Below are positions 27,179 to 55,322 of a DNA stretch of 64,000 nt, one piece after another. Source of the DNA: Streptococcus mutans (GTDB taxonomy: Bacteria > Bacillota > Bacilli > Lactobacillales > Streptococcaceae). Position numbers and translations under genes: made by a program. The notes below the pieces were generated by a model. The model was given only the letters and a program-made list of their open reading frames with translations, searched no databases and was not told where the DNA came from. The stretch's first letter is position 1; each line of letters begins with the position of its first letter. Location of the stretch: the NCBI RefSeq assembly GCF_006739205.1, contig NZ_AP019720.1:1116001-1180000 (forward strand), in the 5' to 3' direction.

Positions 27179-28246
27179 CTAAACAGTTTCCAAAATATGT
27201 CGAAGCTGAACTGCACTTGGGGAAACTATCGGCAGAAAAGCCCCTTCATTCCAACGGCGAATAAAACTTGATGTTGAATGTTTAAAATACCCGCGACCGC
27301 CGCTTGCCTGCAATTCCAGCAGCAAACTATTGGCTACAATATCTACGATATCAATGCGTAACTGAAAAAGCTGCCGCGGATTTCTAATGAAGTAGGTACG
27401 ATCACCTAGACCTTCAAACAAGTCACTCTTAATGGTATTGAGATCTTTCAAAACATTATCATATTCTGTTCTCAGAACTGAACGATTGCTGTTAAGATTT
27501 TGCGCAACTTCTTTTAAGGAACGCTCCGCTAAACCAAAAGCAAGACCAAATTGGTAACCTAGAAATTCCGGACGCGTCTGAGCCAAGAAGTCTTCAGCAT
27601 CATCTGATAAAATCCAGTTATTATCCAAAGGAACGCGATTAAATGTGAGAGCTGCTGTGTTAGAACCCTGCAAAGAAACAAATTCTAAATCATCAGAGCG
27701 TGATAGGTGTGCTGCTGTTGATGGCACTGTCAAAATTAAAGGTTTTTTATTTTCGTCTTCAAAAGAAGCCGCAAAAATAGTAACGAAATTATCAGAACGC
27801 AAATTAGTCACCCAAGGTAATCTGCCTTTAAGGTAATACTGTCCCTCTTGCTCAATGATAGTAACATTCAATTCTTCAATTTTAGATAAGAATTTTGTCG
27901 CATTTGACAGAGCTGTCCCGGCTGCTAATTTCCCTGTTAACAAATCAGGCAGCCAAGTCTTTCTAGCATAGTCGTTACTGCTTGCAAGAATATTTTCGAT
28001 AAAGGTTCGATGTCCCCATGAGATAAAGGAAGCCGTTAAAGAATGCTGCGCTAATTCTGACAAAAATCCAATAACCTCTGTTTGAGAACCACCCTTACCC
28101 CCAGATTTCTCTGGAACAGCAAGACCAAAGACACCTTCCGCTGCTACTTTTTCTAATAGTTGGTCAGCTGCTCCGCCAGACTTTTGGTCAATCTGATCAG
28201 CATGAGTATCTAACCAATCAATAAATTCTCCCGAAAAATAAGCCAT
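27179..28246 (-). CDS. Acyl-CoA-dehydrogenase-family flavoprotein
   Basis: At 355 residues this has the three-part ACAD layout. There is an N-terminal helical part (FGLAVPEKSGGKGGSQTEV), a middle beta part (about 120-205) and a C-terminal helical part ending in RRWNEGAFLPIVSPSAVQLRHILE. The catalytic-base region is not typical of fatty-acid enzymes. S. mutans does not degrade fatty acids, so an ACAD-fold monooxygenase such as the sulfur-acquisition SfnB/DszC group is a better guess (inference). It is 20 bp after the AhpD-like gene and shares its promoter, which carries an ATAA-N7-TTAT box. Confidence 0.75.
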   Translation of the reverse strand: MAYFSGEFIDWLDTHADQIDQKSGGAADQLLEKVAAEGVFGLAVPEKSGGKGGSQTEVIGFLSELAQHSLTASFISWGHRTFIENILASSNDYARKTWLPDLLTGKLAAGTALSNATKFLSKIEELNVTIIEQEGQYYLKGRLPWVTNLRSDNFVTIFAASFEDENKKPLILTVPSTAAHLSRSDDLEFVSLQGSNTAALTFNRVPLDNNWILSDDAEDFLAQTRPEFLGYQFGLAFGLAERSLKEVAQNLNSNRSVLRTEYDNVLKDLNTIKSDLFEGLGDRTYFIRNPRQLFQLRIDIVDIVANSLLLELQASGGRGYFKHSTSSFIRRWNEGAFLPIVSPSAVQLRHILETV

Positions 28247-28266: not shown

Positions 28267-28818
28267 CTATTTCACATACTGCTGTAACTCTGGGTTAATT
28301 GGTGTGTCTGCCATATTATTGGCATAATTGCAAAGCGAGGCTAAACTAACACCCAAAACCACATCAAGCGCATTCTCAGGTGTATAACCAACTTCCAAGA
28401 AATCAGCAAAAGCTTCATCTCCGACACGTCCCTTGGTGTTAATAACAGCAATAGTAAATTTTGCCAAGGTATCCAACTTAGGATCATCATCGATCGGAGT
28501 TGCATTGCGCAAGGCCTCTAATAAATCTGGTGCCATTTGAATTTGCTTAATCGAAAAGGCTGTATGACCTGCTACACAAAAAGCACAGCCATTGGTTACA
28601 GCAGCTGTAATCTGAACAACTTCGCGCTCCGTTGGTGTTAATGAATTACGACGATTAATTTCTCCTACTGTCCGATAAGTCTCAAGAGCCGTTGGGGCAT
28701 TAGCCAAAAGGCCAATAAGATTAGGTATATAGCCGCCATTGTCCTTTTTAACTGTCCGCAACGTTTCTTTAACTCTCTCGGGTGCAGTTTCAATTGTATG
28801 TATAGTAAATTTAGACAT
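28267..28818 (-). CDS. AhpD-like / carboxymuconolactone decarboxylase family protein
   Basis: The 183-residue protein (ATG at 28818, AGGAG seven bases upstream) has the AhpD active-site pattern C78-A-F-C81-V-A-G-H85 after the conserved Glu in TPTEREVVQ. Such proteins act as thiol-disulfide reductants or alkylhydroperoxidases. The pairing with the ACAD-like flavoprotein suggests one reaction system. I recall this locus labelled in S. mutans as macrophage infectivity potentiator-related, which says little about function. A longer open frame to 28932 lacks a ribosome site. Confidence 0.85.
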   Translation of the reverse strand: MSKFTIHTIETAPERVKETLRTVKKDNGGYIPNLIGLLANAPTALETYRTVGEINRRNSLTPTEREVVQITAAVTNGCAFCVAGHTAFSIKQIQMAPDLLEALRNATPIDDDPKLDTLAKFTIAVINTKGRVGDEAFADFLEVGYTPENALDVVLGVSLASLCNYANNMADTPINPELQQYVK

Positions 28819-28839: not shown

Positions 28840-28913
28840 TTCTACTATCTTATCATGCCCTACCTTTTTAGGATAATCTATATTTTTTATGGTTAGGCAT
28901 AAGAAAAATTTAT
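28840..28913 (-). promoter_or_regulatory. Promoter with ATAA-N7-TTAT LysR-type box
   Basis: ATAA-GAAAAAT-TTAT lies at 28899-28913. Downstream on the minus strand come AACCATAAAAAA and an AGATTAT -10-like word. The same order (box, AACCATAAAAAA, AAATTAT) occurs at 53715-53756 in front of the UroD-like gene. The T-N11-A geometry fits LysR regulators. Confidence 0.55.
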
Positions 28914-49611: not shown

Positions 49612-50376
49612 TTATAATATATAATCAACTGAGTAACTATCATCAGACAGAATCCGGGCTAAAAAGCGACGCGTTCTGTCTTCTTTAGGTTTCGAGAAAA
49701 ATTCTTTTGGCGAAGCTTCTTCGATGATGTGCCCACCATCCATAAAAATGACATGATTGGCCACATCTTTGGCAAAACTCATTTCATGCGTGACCACAAT
49801 CATGGTAACGCCCTCCTCAGCCAATTGTTTCATGACACCCAAAACATCACCAATCAATTCAGGGTCAAGTGCCGATGTTGGTTCATCAAAAAAGATAAGA
49901 TCTGGCTTGACTGCAATGGCACGTGCAATCCCAATTCTTTGCTGCTGACCACCAGATAATTGACTAGGATAATAATCTTTATAACTCAATAAGCCTACCT
50001 TTTCAAGGGCTTGCTCCGCAATTTGAATCGCTTGTTCTTTGGGAATCTTTCTTGCAGTCATTAAGCCTTCTAAAATATTCTCCAAAGCGGTTTTATTAGC
50101 AAAAAGATTATAGTGTTGAAAAACAAAGGCCGTCTTTTGCCGAATGGTCAAAATTTCTTTACGATTAAGTGTTGCCAAATCATAAGATTGTCCATCTAAA
50201 GTTAGATGTCCTTTATCTGCTTTTTCCAAGTGATTAAGACAGCGCAAAAAAGTTGTTTTTCCTGAACCGCTAGGACCCAAAATAACGACAACATCTCCCT
50301 TGTTAACAGTCAAGCTAACATTGTCAAGAACAAGTTTATCTCCAAATTGTTTTGATAAATTTTTAATTTCTAACAT
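49612..50376 (-). CDS. Polar amino-acid ABC transporter, ATP-binding protein
   Basis: The 254-residue ATPase has Walker [10 protein letters not shown], signature [14 protein letters not shown], Walker [15 protein letters not shown] and VTHEMSFA, the pattern of the polar amino-acid (PAAT) family. It is the last gene of a five-gene run (UroD-like, binding protein, two permeases, ATPase). I recall this operon as S. mutans tcyDEFGH, linked to cysteine/homocysteine supply, but the name is from memory. Confidence 0.88.
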
Positions 50377-50385
50377 GTATTCTCC

Positions 50386-51060
50386 TTAAGCAAAACGCTT
50401 TTCTAAAGTTGAAAAGCTCCACTGAATCAAACCACAAATAATAATATAAATAATGAAAATCACAAGATAAGATTCAAAATATTGGTAACCATGAGCCGCT
50501 TCAACCTTAGCTATTGCTGTAATATCCTTAACTGTCATGACAAAAACAAGCGAAGTTCCTTTAACAATATTAATCACCAAATTACAAAGATTGGGAAGAG
50601 CAGACCTCAAAGCCTGTGGGAAAATAATTCTGAGATAACTTTGTGTCGTTGTTAAACCAATAGACTGAGCTGCTTCCAACTGTCCCTTATCAACCGTTAA
50701 AATAGCAGATCGTAAAATTTCTGATAGACTCCCTGTTGTCATTAGACTAAAGATAATAAAAGCATAATAAATAGGATTAAGTTTAAAAATATCTAATCCG
50801 CTTGATTTTAAAATGGTATTTAAAACACTGGGTAAAAGACTGTAAAAAAAGAGAATCAAAAGAATAGGCGGTGTTGCTCTAATAAAAGCTAGATAAACAA
50901 TCGAAAAAGTCGTCACACCTTTTACCTTGTAAATTCTGCCCAAAGCCAAAAACAAAGCCGGTAAAAAGCTCAGCAGTATAGAGACTATCATGATGACTAA
51001 GGTCACAGGAACACCCTTTAAGGAAAGTAAAAATGTATGAAAAATATAAGAAAAATCCAT
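50386..51060 (-). CDS. Polar amino-acid ABC transporter, permease 1
   Basis: The 224-residue PAAT-family permease has about five membrane segments and the EAA loop AAQSIGLTTTQSYLRIIFPQALRSALP. It is 9 bp from the ATPase gene and 8 bp from the second permease. It is one half of a heterodimeric channel. Confidence 0.88.
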   Translation of the reverse strand: MDFSYIFHTFLLSLKGVPVTLVIMIVSILLSFLPALFLALGRIYKVKGVTTFSIVYLAFIRATPPILLILFFYSLLPSVLNTILKSSGLDIFKLNPIYYAFIIFSLMTTGSLSEILRSAILTVDKGQLEAAQSIGLTTTQSYLRIIFPQALRSALPNLCNLVINIVKGTSLVFVMTVKDITAIAKVEAAHGYQYFESYLVIFIIYIIICGLIQWSFSTLEKRFA

Positions 51061-51068
51061 ATGACCTC

Positions 51069-51761
51069 CTAAGTATTTCCTTTATTAAGACTGTGTTCCA
51101 TAAAATGTGATACCAGTGACAAAACTAAGGCAATTCCCCAATAAATAAGGGCAACAGCTGTATAAGTTTCCAGAGAGTAATTCCCCAAATTCCGACTAAT
51201 AATCAGATTTCCTGCCCCCATGACATCCACTAAACCGATTGTATAGGCTAGAGCCGCATCTTTCATCAAATTTAAAATGGCAGTTGTTATATTGGGTAAG
51301 GCGATTTGAAAGGTCTGCGGCAAAAGAATACGCCTAAAGGTTTGAAAGCCAGTTAGACCAATACTGAGACCAGCTTCTAATTGTCCCTTAGGTACAGCTA
51401 AATAAGCTGATTTGAAAACTTCAGAAATTGAGGCCGCAAATAGTAATACCATAGTTACAACGACAAAAATAGCACGTGACCAATCGTCAACATCCAAATG
51501 AAGCCACCAAGTCAAAAATTCTGGCAGACCATAAAAAACAAGAAAGAGCAAAACAATTGGCGGTGTACATCTCAAAATAAAAACATATCCTTTAGCAAAG
51601 GCTGCCCAGCTGTTTTTAGAATCCACTTGTGCCCAAGCCAGACCTGCTCCCAACAAAGAACCTAAAAGAACGGTTAAAAAAATGACCCACAACGTTAAAG
51701 GAAGAGCATTTAAAATAGTTGGCAAAAATTTAAAAACATAAGATGGTGTATAAGAAACCAT
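51069..51761 (-). CDS. Polar amino-acid ABC transporter, permease 2
   Basis: The 230-residue permease has about five membrane segments, RCTPPIVLLFLVFYGLP near the N-terminus and the EAA loop AGLSIGLTGFQTFRRILLPQTFQ. It pairs with the neighbouring permease. It lies 9 bp after the binding-protein gene. Confidence 0.88.
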   Translation of the reverse strand: MVSYTPSYVFKFLPTILNALPLTLWVIFLTVLLGSLLGAGLAWAQVDSKNSWAAFAKGYVFILRCTPPIVLLFLVFYGLPEFLTWWLHLDVDDWSRAIFVVVTMVLLFAASISEVFKSAYLAVPKGQLEAGLSIGLTGFQTFRRILLPQTFQIALPNITTAILNLMKDAALAYTIGLVDVMGAGNLIISRNLGNYSLETYTAVALIYWGIALVLSLVSHFMEHSLNKGNT

Positions 51762-51770
51762 ACTGACCTC

Positions 51771-52625
51771 CTATTTTGTGACATAGTTAAAGACATCTTC
51801 CCCAAAATACTTCTTAGACAGTTTGGCTAAAGTTCCATCCTTCTTCAATTCTTTCACAGCCTTATTGTAAGCTTTAACGAACTTTTGATTGGCTTTATTA
51901 CGATGAATCAATGGGTAAGTTTCGATACCTTTATAAGGAATCCAAGTCAACTTATCAGCATACTTATGATAAGCACCATCCTTATCCTTCACAGCCTGTT
52001 TAAAGGAGAGTTTTATATCAAAATAAGCATCATAACGTCCCTCTAAAACCCAGGCATAAGCATCTGCAACCGTAAAACTTTCTGCTGATTTCAAATCAAT
52101 TGGAGTATCTTTATGTTTTTTATTGTAAGCTTCAATAACATTCCACTGAGCATTTTGCGGAGAGATAGGAACAAGTTTGCCGCCCGATTTCGCAAAAGAA
52201 TTAATACCAGTAATTGTTTTTTCTTCATCTTTCCTAATAGTCAAGCCGATGACACTGGCACCAAGAGCATCTTTAGGGATAATAAATTTTTTGGCACGCT
52301 CTTTTGTGTACCAAGCCCCTTTAGTCCCAATATCATACTTGCCTGATTCAAGTCCGATAAGCAAATCCTCATCACTTGTTCCTGTATATTTAAATTTATA
52401 ATCAGGTAGTTTTTTATCAATAGCTTTTAAAACGTCTACTTCATAGCCTGTATTTTCTCCCTTATCATTCACATAATCATAGGGAGCATAATTTTGAGTA
52501 TGAGCCACCTTTAGAGTAGTCACTTTCTCATTAGCACCATTTCCCGCCAATTGACGTCCAATAATCGTCCCACCAATAAGAAGAAACAATACGCCTCCTG
52601 TAACAATCCATGTTTTCTTAGTCAT
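51771..52625 (-). CDS. Amino-acid ABC transporter, substrate-binding protein
   Basis: The 284-residue protein is a family 3 solute-binding protein with TLKVAHTQNYAPYDYVNDKGENTGYEVDVLKAI at the ligand site and KYDIGTKGAWYTKERAKKF. The N-terminal hydrophobic segment (about 5-25) has no lipobox Cys, so it is probably membrane-anchored rather than a lipoprotein. An aromatic-rich, Asn/Lys-rich pocket and operon context fit a sulfur amino acid (inference). Confidence 0.85.
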   Translation of the reverse strand: MTKKTWIVTGGVLFLLIGGTIIGRQLAGNGANEKVTTLKVAHTQNYAPYDYVNDKGENTGYEVDVLKAIDKKLPDYKFKYTGTSDEDLLIGLESGKYDIGTKGAWYTKERAKKFIIPKDALGASVIGLTIRKDEEKTITGINSFAKSGGKLVPISPQNAQWNVIEAYNKKHKDTPIDLKSAESFTVADAYAWVLEGRYDAYFDIKLSFKQAVKDKDGAYHKYADKLTWIPYKGIETYPLIHRNKANQKFVKAYNKAVKELKKDGTLAKLSKKYFGEDVFNYVTK

Positions 52626-53656: not shown

Positions 53657-53714
53657 AAAGTCCATCTCCTTTGAAAATAATATGACTTTATCCTACCATC
53701 TCCTCAACACCTTG

Positions 53715-53821
53715 TATAATTTATCTTTTTTATGGTTGGCTATAAATTTTATTTATGGCAATAAAAAAGAGCTTAAATAAAGGAAAAGAAAAAACAATAG
53801 TAGGCCATAAGAAAAAGTTAT
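53715..53821. promoter_or_regulatory. Two ATAA-N7-TTAT boxes between the UroD-like operon and the LysR gene
   Basis: ATAA-ATTTTAT-TTAT (53742-53756) and ATAA-GAAAAAG-TTAT (53807-53821) have the T-N11-A spacing of LysR sites, 65 bp apart. On the minus strand the first is followed by AACCATAAAAAA and AAATTATACA, matching the arrangement at 28840-28913. Confidence 0.6.
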
Positions 53822-53913: not shown

Positions 53914-54825
53914 ATGAATTTTCAACAATGTCGTTATGTTGAGGCTATTGCCAATACAGGTTCTTTTAGTGAAGCTGCTAAAAAACTTTATGTCACACAG
54001 CCCAATCTTTCCTCTTCAATTAAAGAGTTAGAAAATGACTTAGGAGTACAGCTTTTTATTCGCTCTAATACGGGTGCTCGCCTAACAGATGATGGTTATG
54101 ATTTTCTTAAGTATGCTAAACGCATTTTGGGAGAAGCTGATCTTCTTAAAAAACGCTACCAAGACAACTACAAAAAGAGCTTTACCATTAGTTCGCATCA
54201 CTATGATTTTCTAGCCATTCCGCTTCTTGAAATAGCCGAAAAATTCAAAAAAGACTTTCAACATTTTCACCTGATTGAGACAACAACCAAAAAAATCTTA
54301 GAAAGCGTCTTAAATTTTGAAAGTGACTTGGGTATTCTTTATCTTAACGACGATAATCGTCATATTTTAGAACGTTATTTTAAACAGCATGATCTTGCTT
54401 TTACACCTCTCGGGGATTTTCCTACACGGATTTTCCTTAGAAAAGATCATCCGCTCGCCCAGCAAAAGGTCATTGAAAAAGTGCAATTAAAAGATTATAA
54501 GCAAGTCCGTTTCAGACAAGAAATTTCAGGACTTAACTTTGACGAAGATACCCTTGATATTCCTGAAAATCAATCTGTCTTTTACAGTAATGATCGCGGT
54601 ACTATCATGAATATCCTCTGTGGTTCAGATGCTTATGCTTCAGGATTGGGTATTGTTAACAGTTTTATCAAGGATCAAATTGTTCTAATCCCTCTTAAAG
54701 ACAGCAAAATGCATACCCTTGGTTTTGTTAGCAATAAACGTAAACAAGAAACTGATATTACTCAGCAATTCATTACTGCTGTTAAAAACAGTCTTAGAAC
54801 ATACGAAAGGGGAACACAATTGTGA
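53914..54825 (+). CDS. LysR-family transcriptional regulator
   Basis: The 303-residue protein has an N-terminal HTH (NFQQCRYVEAIANTGSFSEAAKKLYVTQPNLSSSIKELE) and a LysR effector-binding domain. It is divergent from the UroD-like/ABC operon with two LysR-type boxes between, so it very probably controls that operon. I recall the S. mutans regulator HomR, linked to homocysteine/cysteine supply, in this neighbourhood, and this gene may be it. Confidence 0.88.
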   Translation: MNFQQCRYVEAIANTGSFSEAAKKLYVTQPNLSSSIKELENDLGVQLFIRSNTGARLTDDGYDFLKYAKRILGEADLLKKRYQDNYKKSFTISSHHYDFLAIPLLEIAEKFKKDFQHFHLIETTTKKILESVLNFESDLGILYLNDDNRHILERYFKQHDLAFTPLGDFPTRIFLRKDHPLAQQKVIEKVQLKDYKQVRFRQEISGLNFDEDTLDIPENQSVFYSNDRGTIMNILCGSDAYASGLGIVNSFIKDQIVLIPLKDSKMHTLGFVSNKRKQETDITQQFITAVKNSLRTYERGTQL

Positions 54826-54971: not shown

Positions 54972-55322
54972 ATGTCAATTATTAAAATGCTTATTATCAT
55001 TCTGGTCGCTTTGGAATTCTTTTACATTATGTATTTGGAAACGTTAGCCACACAGTCTACAAAGACATCTCAAGTTTTTGGCATGACTCAAGAAACATTA
55101 GGTGAAAAAGAAATTGATGTACTGTTTAAAAATCAAGGTATTTATAATGGCCTTCTTGGTTTAGGTCTGCTTTATGGCTTAGCTTTTAATACAGCTATCA
55201 TTTTACCAATCTTGATTTACATTATTCTTGTTGCTGCGTATGGTGCTTATAGCAGCAATCCAAAAATTTTGCTGACACAGGGAGGGTTAGCCATTATCGC
55301 TGCACTACTTTATCTCTTTTAA
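54972..55322 (+). CDS. DUF1304 membrane protein
   Basis: The 116-residue protein has four hydrophobic segments and the DUF1304 pattern (MYLETLATQS, FKNQGIYNGLLGLGL). AGGAGGC precedes the ATG at good spacing. It stands alone after the LysR gene, 146 bp downstream. Function unknown. Confidence 0.85.
   Translation: MSIIKMLIIILVALEFFYIMYLETLATQSTKTSQVFGMTQETLGEKEIDVLFKNQGIYNGLLGLGLLYGLAFNTAIILPILIYIILVAAYGAYSSNPKILLTQGGLAIIAALLYLF

Follow-up and report, generated by a model that had tools for sequence, protein, structure and literature searches.

The ytmI operon of Bacillus subtilis is controlled by a LysR regulator, and the sulfur operons of the ytmI and yxe type in that organism combine a cystine-type ATP-binding cassette (ABC) importer, a flavin enzyme and an M20 deacetylase. 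In this study, we describe a 64-kb window of the Streptococcus mutans chromosome (the whole stretch analysed, G000:C1:1116001-1180000, part of a single-contig genome of 2,018,796 bases), in which a LysR-type gene adjoins an operon for a UroD-like protein and an ABC importer, and a gene pair for an AhpD-like protein and a protein of the acyl-CoA-dehydrogenase fold (ACAD) is found 25 kb away. A 46-base element is shared by the promoters of both operons, co-occurs with the LysR gene across streptococcal genomes, and stands before sulfur genes in relatives. It is likely, judging from these sequence comparisons, that the adjacent LysR protein controls a sulfur-scavenging regulon that includes both operons and a gene for an M20 amidohydrolase. 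The importer, flavin enzyme and M20 enzyme recall the B. subtilis operons, in which, however, the flavin enzyme is luciferase-like instead of having the ACAD fold; in S. mutans a UroD-like protein is added and the operons are scattered. Closer still is the HomR/CysR/MetR system of S. mutans itself, in which the supply of sulfur amino acids is governed by three LysR paralogs (PMC5131005, PMC4048456, PMC13160496). HomR activates metBC, tcyDEFGH and the thiosulfate genes, and CysR, which is SMU.852 (PMC11631912), activates homR (PMC5131005).

The original prediction linked the two operons through the short box ATAA-N7-TTAT at 53742-53756, 53807-53821 and 28899-28913, with AACCATAAAAAA and an AAATTAT or AGATTAT word following two of the copies on the minus strand. 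A pattern scan of the window recovered the boxes at exactly these positions, AACCATAAAAAA at 53726-53737 and 28883-28894, and the words AAATTAT at 53716-53722 and AGATTAT at 28873-28879, with the same 3-base gap in both; it also revealed three further boxes, absent from the prediction, at 2999, 27607 and 53677. Box frequency had been proposed as the measure of the idea, and here the outcome was divided, the short box occurring at chance frequency, for which reason it was dropped as regulon evidence by itself, and the 46-base element lying far above chance. This element consists of ATAA-N7-TTAT-N8-ATAA and a -10-like stretch, running from ATAA to the CAAG past that stretch. The predicted T-N11-A dyad, ATAA-N7-TTAT, was present within both elements, and the LysR gene was indeed found to adjoin the UroD-like operon, from which it is divergent (UroD-like protein, solute-binding protein (SBP), two permeases and ATPase, 53665 to 49612).

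Searching the genome with ATAA-N7-TTAT-NNCYAACCATAAAAAA gave two exact matches, namely the UroD and AhpD promoters, and two more with three mismatches each; the reversed pattern, used as a control, had no match in the 2,018,796 bases. A sequence-only profile, R1, was built from 26 aligned sites (13 UroD and 13 AhpD promoters), 16 columns of which are invariant, including all of TTAT and all of the second ATAA. Over the own genome, R1 gave 24 matches up to E 10, and only three places were strong. Two are the UroD and AhpD sites, which were also read on the opposite strand (matches at 1169720 and 1144877, respectively). The third is a new site of 28.5 bits (E 3.6e-6), outside the training set; 51 bases separate its end from the gene for an M20 amidohydrolase (TIGR01891, 354.3 bits for a cut-off of 153.75) that lies about 1 Mb from the other two operons. 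The sites also recognise one another: the AhpD element scored 34.7 by a matrix trained on UroD promoters, and a matrix from 11 AhpD sites, all of other genomes, gave 51.8 for the UroD site of the window, 47.5 for the AhpD site and 35.5 for the M20 site. With the same matrix no other place in the window rose above 7.0, and three simulated genomes of equal size peaked at 21.1.

Weak R1 matches upstream of genes were found at LysR, cysK and metB. The third box copy of the prediction belongs to a left half-element, ATAA-N7-TTATGGCC, that precedes the LysR gene and lacks the right half; ATAA or ATAC-N7-TTAT was seen by eye at the corresponding place in five relatives (L005-L009), and the half-element is possibly an autoregulatory or second site. 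The match at cysK (gene named by eye) has E 0.13 and the geometry of the element. At metB, part of the metBC target of HomR in the described system, the match is weaker (E 4.85) and ends 76 bases before the ATG. Five other weak places (L223-L227), inside genes or across gene starts and without the full element, were taken as chance.

In order to follow the element across the genus, 247 Streptococcus genomes were searched; of these, 36 contained LysR (E <= 1e-60) and 55 ACAD (E <= 1e-20), with 15 having the two together. Scores were obtained for the AhpD promoters of 54 of the 55, a contig end truncating that of G184. By a matrix trained on 17 UroD promoters, the own one included, and on no AhpD promoter, the AhpD promoters reached at least 18.8 bits in all 15 genomes with LysR, and at most 1.0 in all 39 scorable genomes without it. 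The reverse comparison used the 11-site AhpD matrix on the 30 best UroD loci of the 93 genomes with a UroD match. Scores of at least 31.8 were obtained in 12 of 13 genomes with LysR. The LysR-lacking loci carry tandem UroD copies, and the first 400 bases scored there were mostly coding sequence of the first copy, so that they were rescored over 134-263 bases upstream of it; since the peak was then -3.2, the count of none in 17 stands. Furthermore, one genome (G042) has retained LysR and the AhpD element (score 47.3) with no UroD/ABC operon beside LysR (locus L058), and a genome search found no UroD-like gene in it. The proposal that one LysR regulator links the two operons is thus supported from both sides, before AhpD (15/15 vs 0/39) and before UroD (12/13 vs 0/17), as well as by this genome. 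When R1 was run over 35 further genomes with LysR, all had a match at E <= 0.05, with best values from 7e-14 to 3e-5; not all of these matches are independent, as training sites were drawn from many such genomes.

The LysR protein is one of five in the genome. Among the four compared, three are mutually alike (38%, 32% and 33% identity), the window protein sharing 38% and 32% with its two paralogs, and the fourth shows 21% identity over part of its length. Because it is one of three mutual paralogs, the window LysR is probably HomR; the UroD/ABC operon is probably tcyDEFGH, and part of the regulon may therefore already be known. The AhpD/ACAD pair, the M20 gene and an ergothioneine-type operon described below are not among the targets given in the excerpts of the papers on the HomR/CysR/MetR system, and the literature covered, which was limited and makes this a weak negative, held no statement placing the pair or the M20 gene in this regulon. 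The likeness of the paralogs, together with the weak match of similar geometry before cysK, a CysR target (PMC5131005), also raises the question of whether the element is read by CysR or the third paralog instead of the adjacent protein. We consider this quite unlikely, as the presence of the element tracks the adjacent LysR gene across genomes, and the cysK site reads TTATCA..TGATAA where the element has TTATRGC..CCATAA. In addition, CmbR, which we infer to be the CysR counterpart, was universal in 15 Streptococcaceae genomes (PMC3616900), yet the element is missing where the adjacent LysR is missing; CysR itself was not searched in the 247 genomes. The TTATCA-TGATAA palindrome of the cysK promoter (L126:1491-1505), in place of TTAT-N8-ATAA, is a possible specificity switch between the LysR paralogs. 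Downstream of the LysR gene, a gene for a DUF1304 membrane protein (54972-55322) keeps its position in several mutans-type genomes.

The genes behind the element in relatives were analysed in 70 rows, chosen among the highest-ranking R1 matches together with L122; the sites of G096, G191 and G098 each appear twice, the UroD matrix shows no clear site in one row (L203), and a few rows have no nearby open reading frame (ORF). They include genes for UroD-like, AhpD-like and M20 proteins and for amino-acid SBPs or permeases, partly cystine-like. M20 genes follow the element in eight genomes (G000, G127, G057, G176, G214, G036, G098 and G213; BLAST 75-100%), and G191 also has an M20 gene. A TsuA-like sulfur transporter follows it in seven by sequence likeness (G143, G214, G043, G236, G139, G061 and G020); TsuA was the best NCBIfam match, below cut-off, in the two genomes tested with it, PF04143 was over its cut-off in the one tested with Pfam, and in G143 a TsuB-like gene (best match, below cut-off) comes next. 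C26 hydrolases behind the element were over the Pfam cut-off in G073 and G180; that of G075, assigned by likeness, is apparently interrupted, and that of G098 lies about 470 bases from the element. In G069 and G191 the element precedes a gene for a thiourocanate hydratase over the equivalog cut-off, followed by a thiohydantoin desulfurase, over cut-off in G069, where it was tested, and alike by eye in G191. The same operons contain a histidine-ammonia-lyase-like gene (below cut-off), to which the one in G069 adds a betaine-type ABC importer (below cut-off). They apparently encode ergothioneine desulfurisation; judging from the model names, the lyase may be ergothionase and the pathway that of ergothioneine. 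A sulfur role, as had been proposed, is in this way supported indirectly by thiourocanate hydratase, thiohydantoin desulfurase, the TsuA-like transporter and the amino-acid importers.

Published data bear on the two operons as well. The C-termini printed for SMU.932, SMU.933, SMU.961 and SMU.962 are those of the UroD-like, SBP, AhpD-like and ACAD-like proteins of the window, and these four occupy 4 of the 10 rows in the table of proteins accumulating most in a clpX mutant (PMC10782952). The authors read the proteins of that table as ClpX substrates, and SMU.961 is reported to be one (PMC10782952). On this account each protein would accumulate through its own proteolysis, and the likeness of the promoters would be due to descent or chance. 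Conservation of the element is independent of ClpX, and shared transcription would be the simpler account of four rows in ten from two operons, so that we regard separate proteolysis as highly improbable.

A redox or peroxide response, with cystine imported for redox balance and not for sulfur nutrition, would agree with the AhpD family membership of the AhpD-like protein, with the rise of SMU_932-936 alongside S. mitis, described in work on the peroxide production of the latter (PMC11921374), and with the accumulation of SpxA2 in the clpX mutant (PMC10782952). Against it stand the nutrient-type functions that follow the element in relatives (thiourocanate hydratase, thiohydantoin desulfurase, sulfur transporter, M20 and C26 hydrolases), and we hold it to be unlikely. 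In favour of joint control of the two operons, AhpD with its dehydrogenase and SMU_933-936 were altered only in an lrgAB mutant under all three stresses, with no direction stated in the excerpt (PMC5361627). Cysteine uptake genes including tcyEFGH rose under zinc (PMC9387928), and tcyDEFGH, cysK and a hipO rose on immR depletion (PMC10233336), their match to SMU.932-936 or 933-936 and to the M20 gene being putative.

Several observations weigh against a single sulfur regulon under the adjacent LysR. The short box is not enriched in the window (six copies for 4.51 expected, and at least six in 27 of 100 shuffles). One genome with LysR (G073) has no element within 400 bases of UroD, a score of 22.4 being found elsewhere in the locus. 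Three changes of the LysR label suffice on the ACAD tree, with LysR present in 15 of the 18 rows of one side; the label is clustered, and the independent events are therefore few, though concordant, the three exceptions on that side (L029, L112 and L113) lacking both LysR and the element. The element before thiourocanate hydratase is moderate (E 1.8e-5 and 3.2e-4). Weak R1 matches, with a best E of 5.8e-5, were found in 11 of 35 genomes without LysR, a non-random sample of the 211 taken from printed lists. In excerpts of five papers one operon is mentioned without the other (PMC10900908, PMC9416482, PMC11921374, PMC6952196 and PMC12815764), and a joint response is therefore not present in every data set. 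An internal stop was flagged in the LysR gene of G073, G083, G114, G143 and G181, all counted as having LysR; the flagged stop, at about residue 299 of 303, is the natural end of LysR in L077, L080, L081 and L115, and the protein of G073 (L065) has no stop inside aligned residues 1-299.

Turning to the proteins, an ordinary acyl-CoA dehydrogenase needs an electron-transfer flavoprotein (ETF). A search for the ETF domain PF01012 (E <= 0.001) found none in the own genome; 10 of the 14 control genomes had one. The ACAD-like protein had been suggested to be a sulfur-acquisition monooxygenase, and it shares the fold class of SfnB and DszC and matches their models weakly, but far below the family cut-offs (TIGR04022 for SfnB, 38.9 vs 430.9 bits; DszC, 28 vs 850 bits). 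The fold searches did not separate dehydrogenase from monooxygenase, and the profile alignments stop short of the C-terminal part, where a catalytic glutamate would be expected. TdsC (5xb8), related to DszC, ranked 40 with Foldseek, and DszC was absent from the 50 rows of a second structure search. The suggestion is only compatible with these findings, among which the lack of a detected ETF agrees with it. The AhpD-like protein is matched over its full length by the solved structure 3lvy (E 9.4e-119).

Named relatives of the ACAD-like protein outside streptococci, among 120 listed, were Aerococcus (64% identity) and many Pasteurellaceae (about 48-59%), which suggests transfer between mucosal bacteria. 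In G127, whose ACAD is 97% identical, two transposase-like ORFs, recognised by eye, lie between the AhpD-like gene and ACAD (L024:2623-3971). The ACAD copy of G058 (L031, with LysR) was flagged with two internal stops, and its AhpD promoter element is kept (score 41.3).

In the UroD-like protein an H-x-C...C pattern is present, with C233 and C318 invariant and H231 conserved in at least 90% of 37 sequences; these are presumably zinc ligands of the MtaA/CmuA type. The protein differs from the zinc methyltransferases MtaA and CmuA of the UroD superfamily in reaching 38.5 bits with TIGR01463, the cut-off of which is 235.4, and no B12-binding domain (PF02310) was found in the own genome at E <= 0.001; the domain was detected in 12 of the 14 control genomes. 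All 17 LysR-lacking genomes fetched (L240-L255 and L257) have the UroD-like gene as two tandem copies without the element.

We infer LysR binding, activation, the inducing signal and the substrates from the above. LysR would bind ATAA-N7-TTAT together with the TTAT-N8-ATAA that adjoins it, both immediately preceding a weak promoter, and would thereby control at least three operons, those of the UroD-like protein and cystine-type ABC importer, the AhpD-like/ACAD-like pair and the M20 amidohydrolase. It would be an activator of sulfur scavenging and probably autoregulated. The importer may take up cystine or modified sulfur amino acids, removal of an N-acyl group may fall to the M20 enzyme, and an ETF-free flavoprotein and a corrinoid-free, zinc-type UroD-like enzyme may help to release sulfur. 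More tentatively, as a possibility we would not favour at even chances, the UroD-like, ACAD-fold, AhpD-like and M20 proteins may form one undescribed corrinoid- and ETF-free pathway freeing sulfur from S-alkylated or N-acylated cysteine-type compounds, with the same regulator running ergothioneine desulfurisation as a sulfur source elsewhere in streptococci.

Table 1. Features of the window and of the ergothioneine-type loci in two relatives
Feature	Position	Strand	Evidence
LysR-type regulator, 303 aa, proposed regulator	53914..54825	+	PF00126 74.8 bits, PF03466 40 bits, both over cut-off
Element before UroD-like/ABC operon	53711..53756	-	R1 E 1.4e-10, 42.6 bits, site itself in model
Element before AhpD-like/ACAD-like pair	28868..28913	-	R1 E 3.0e-10, 41.5 bits, site itself in model
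Left half-element upstream of LysR gene	53797..53821	-	R1 15.1 bits, E 0.05
UroD-like protein, SMU.932 by C-terminus, H231-x-C233 ... C318	52649..53665	-	PF01208
Amino-acid SBP, SMU.933 by C-terminus	51771..52625	-	PF00497; best NCBIfam match cystine SBP model, below cut-off
ABC permease 1	51069..51761	-	PF00528; best NCBIfam match cystine permease, below cut-off
ABC permease 2	50386..51060	-	ORF; kept in operon of relatives
ABC ATPase, TcyN-like	49612..50376	-	PF00005; NF008428 best match, below cut-off
AhpD-like/CMD protein, SMU.961 by C-terminus	28267..28815	-	PF02627, TIGR00778 over cut-off; structure 3lvy
ACAD-fold protein, SMU.962 by C-terminus	27179..28246	-	
Element-bearing ergothioneine-type operon	L212:5683-12616 (G069) and L213:5722-10081 (G191)		

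The regulon proposed here would place enzymes of a caries bacterium that are so far poorly characterised in one sulfur regulon and supplies a precise predicted operator. It also offers an alternative reading of the published clpX proteome, in which the products of both operons are prominent. A further prediction is that in some streptococci ergothioneine desulfurisation would be induced via the same regulator.
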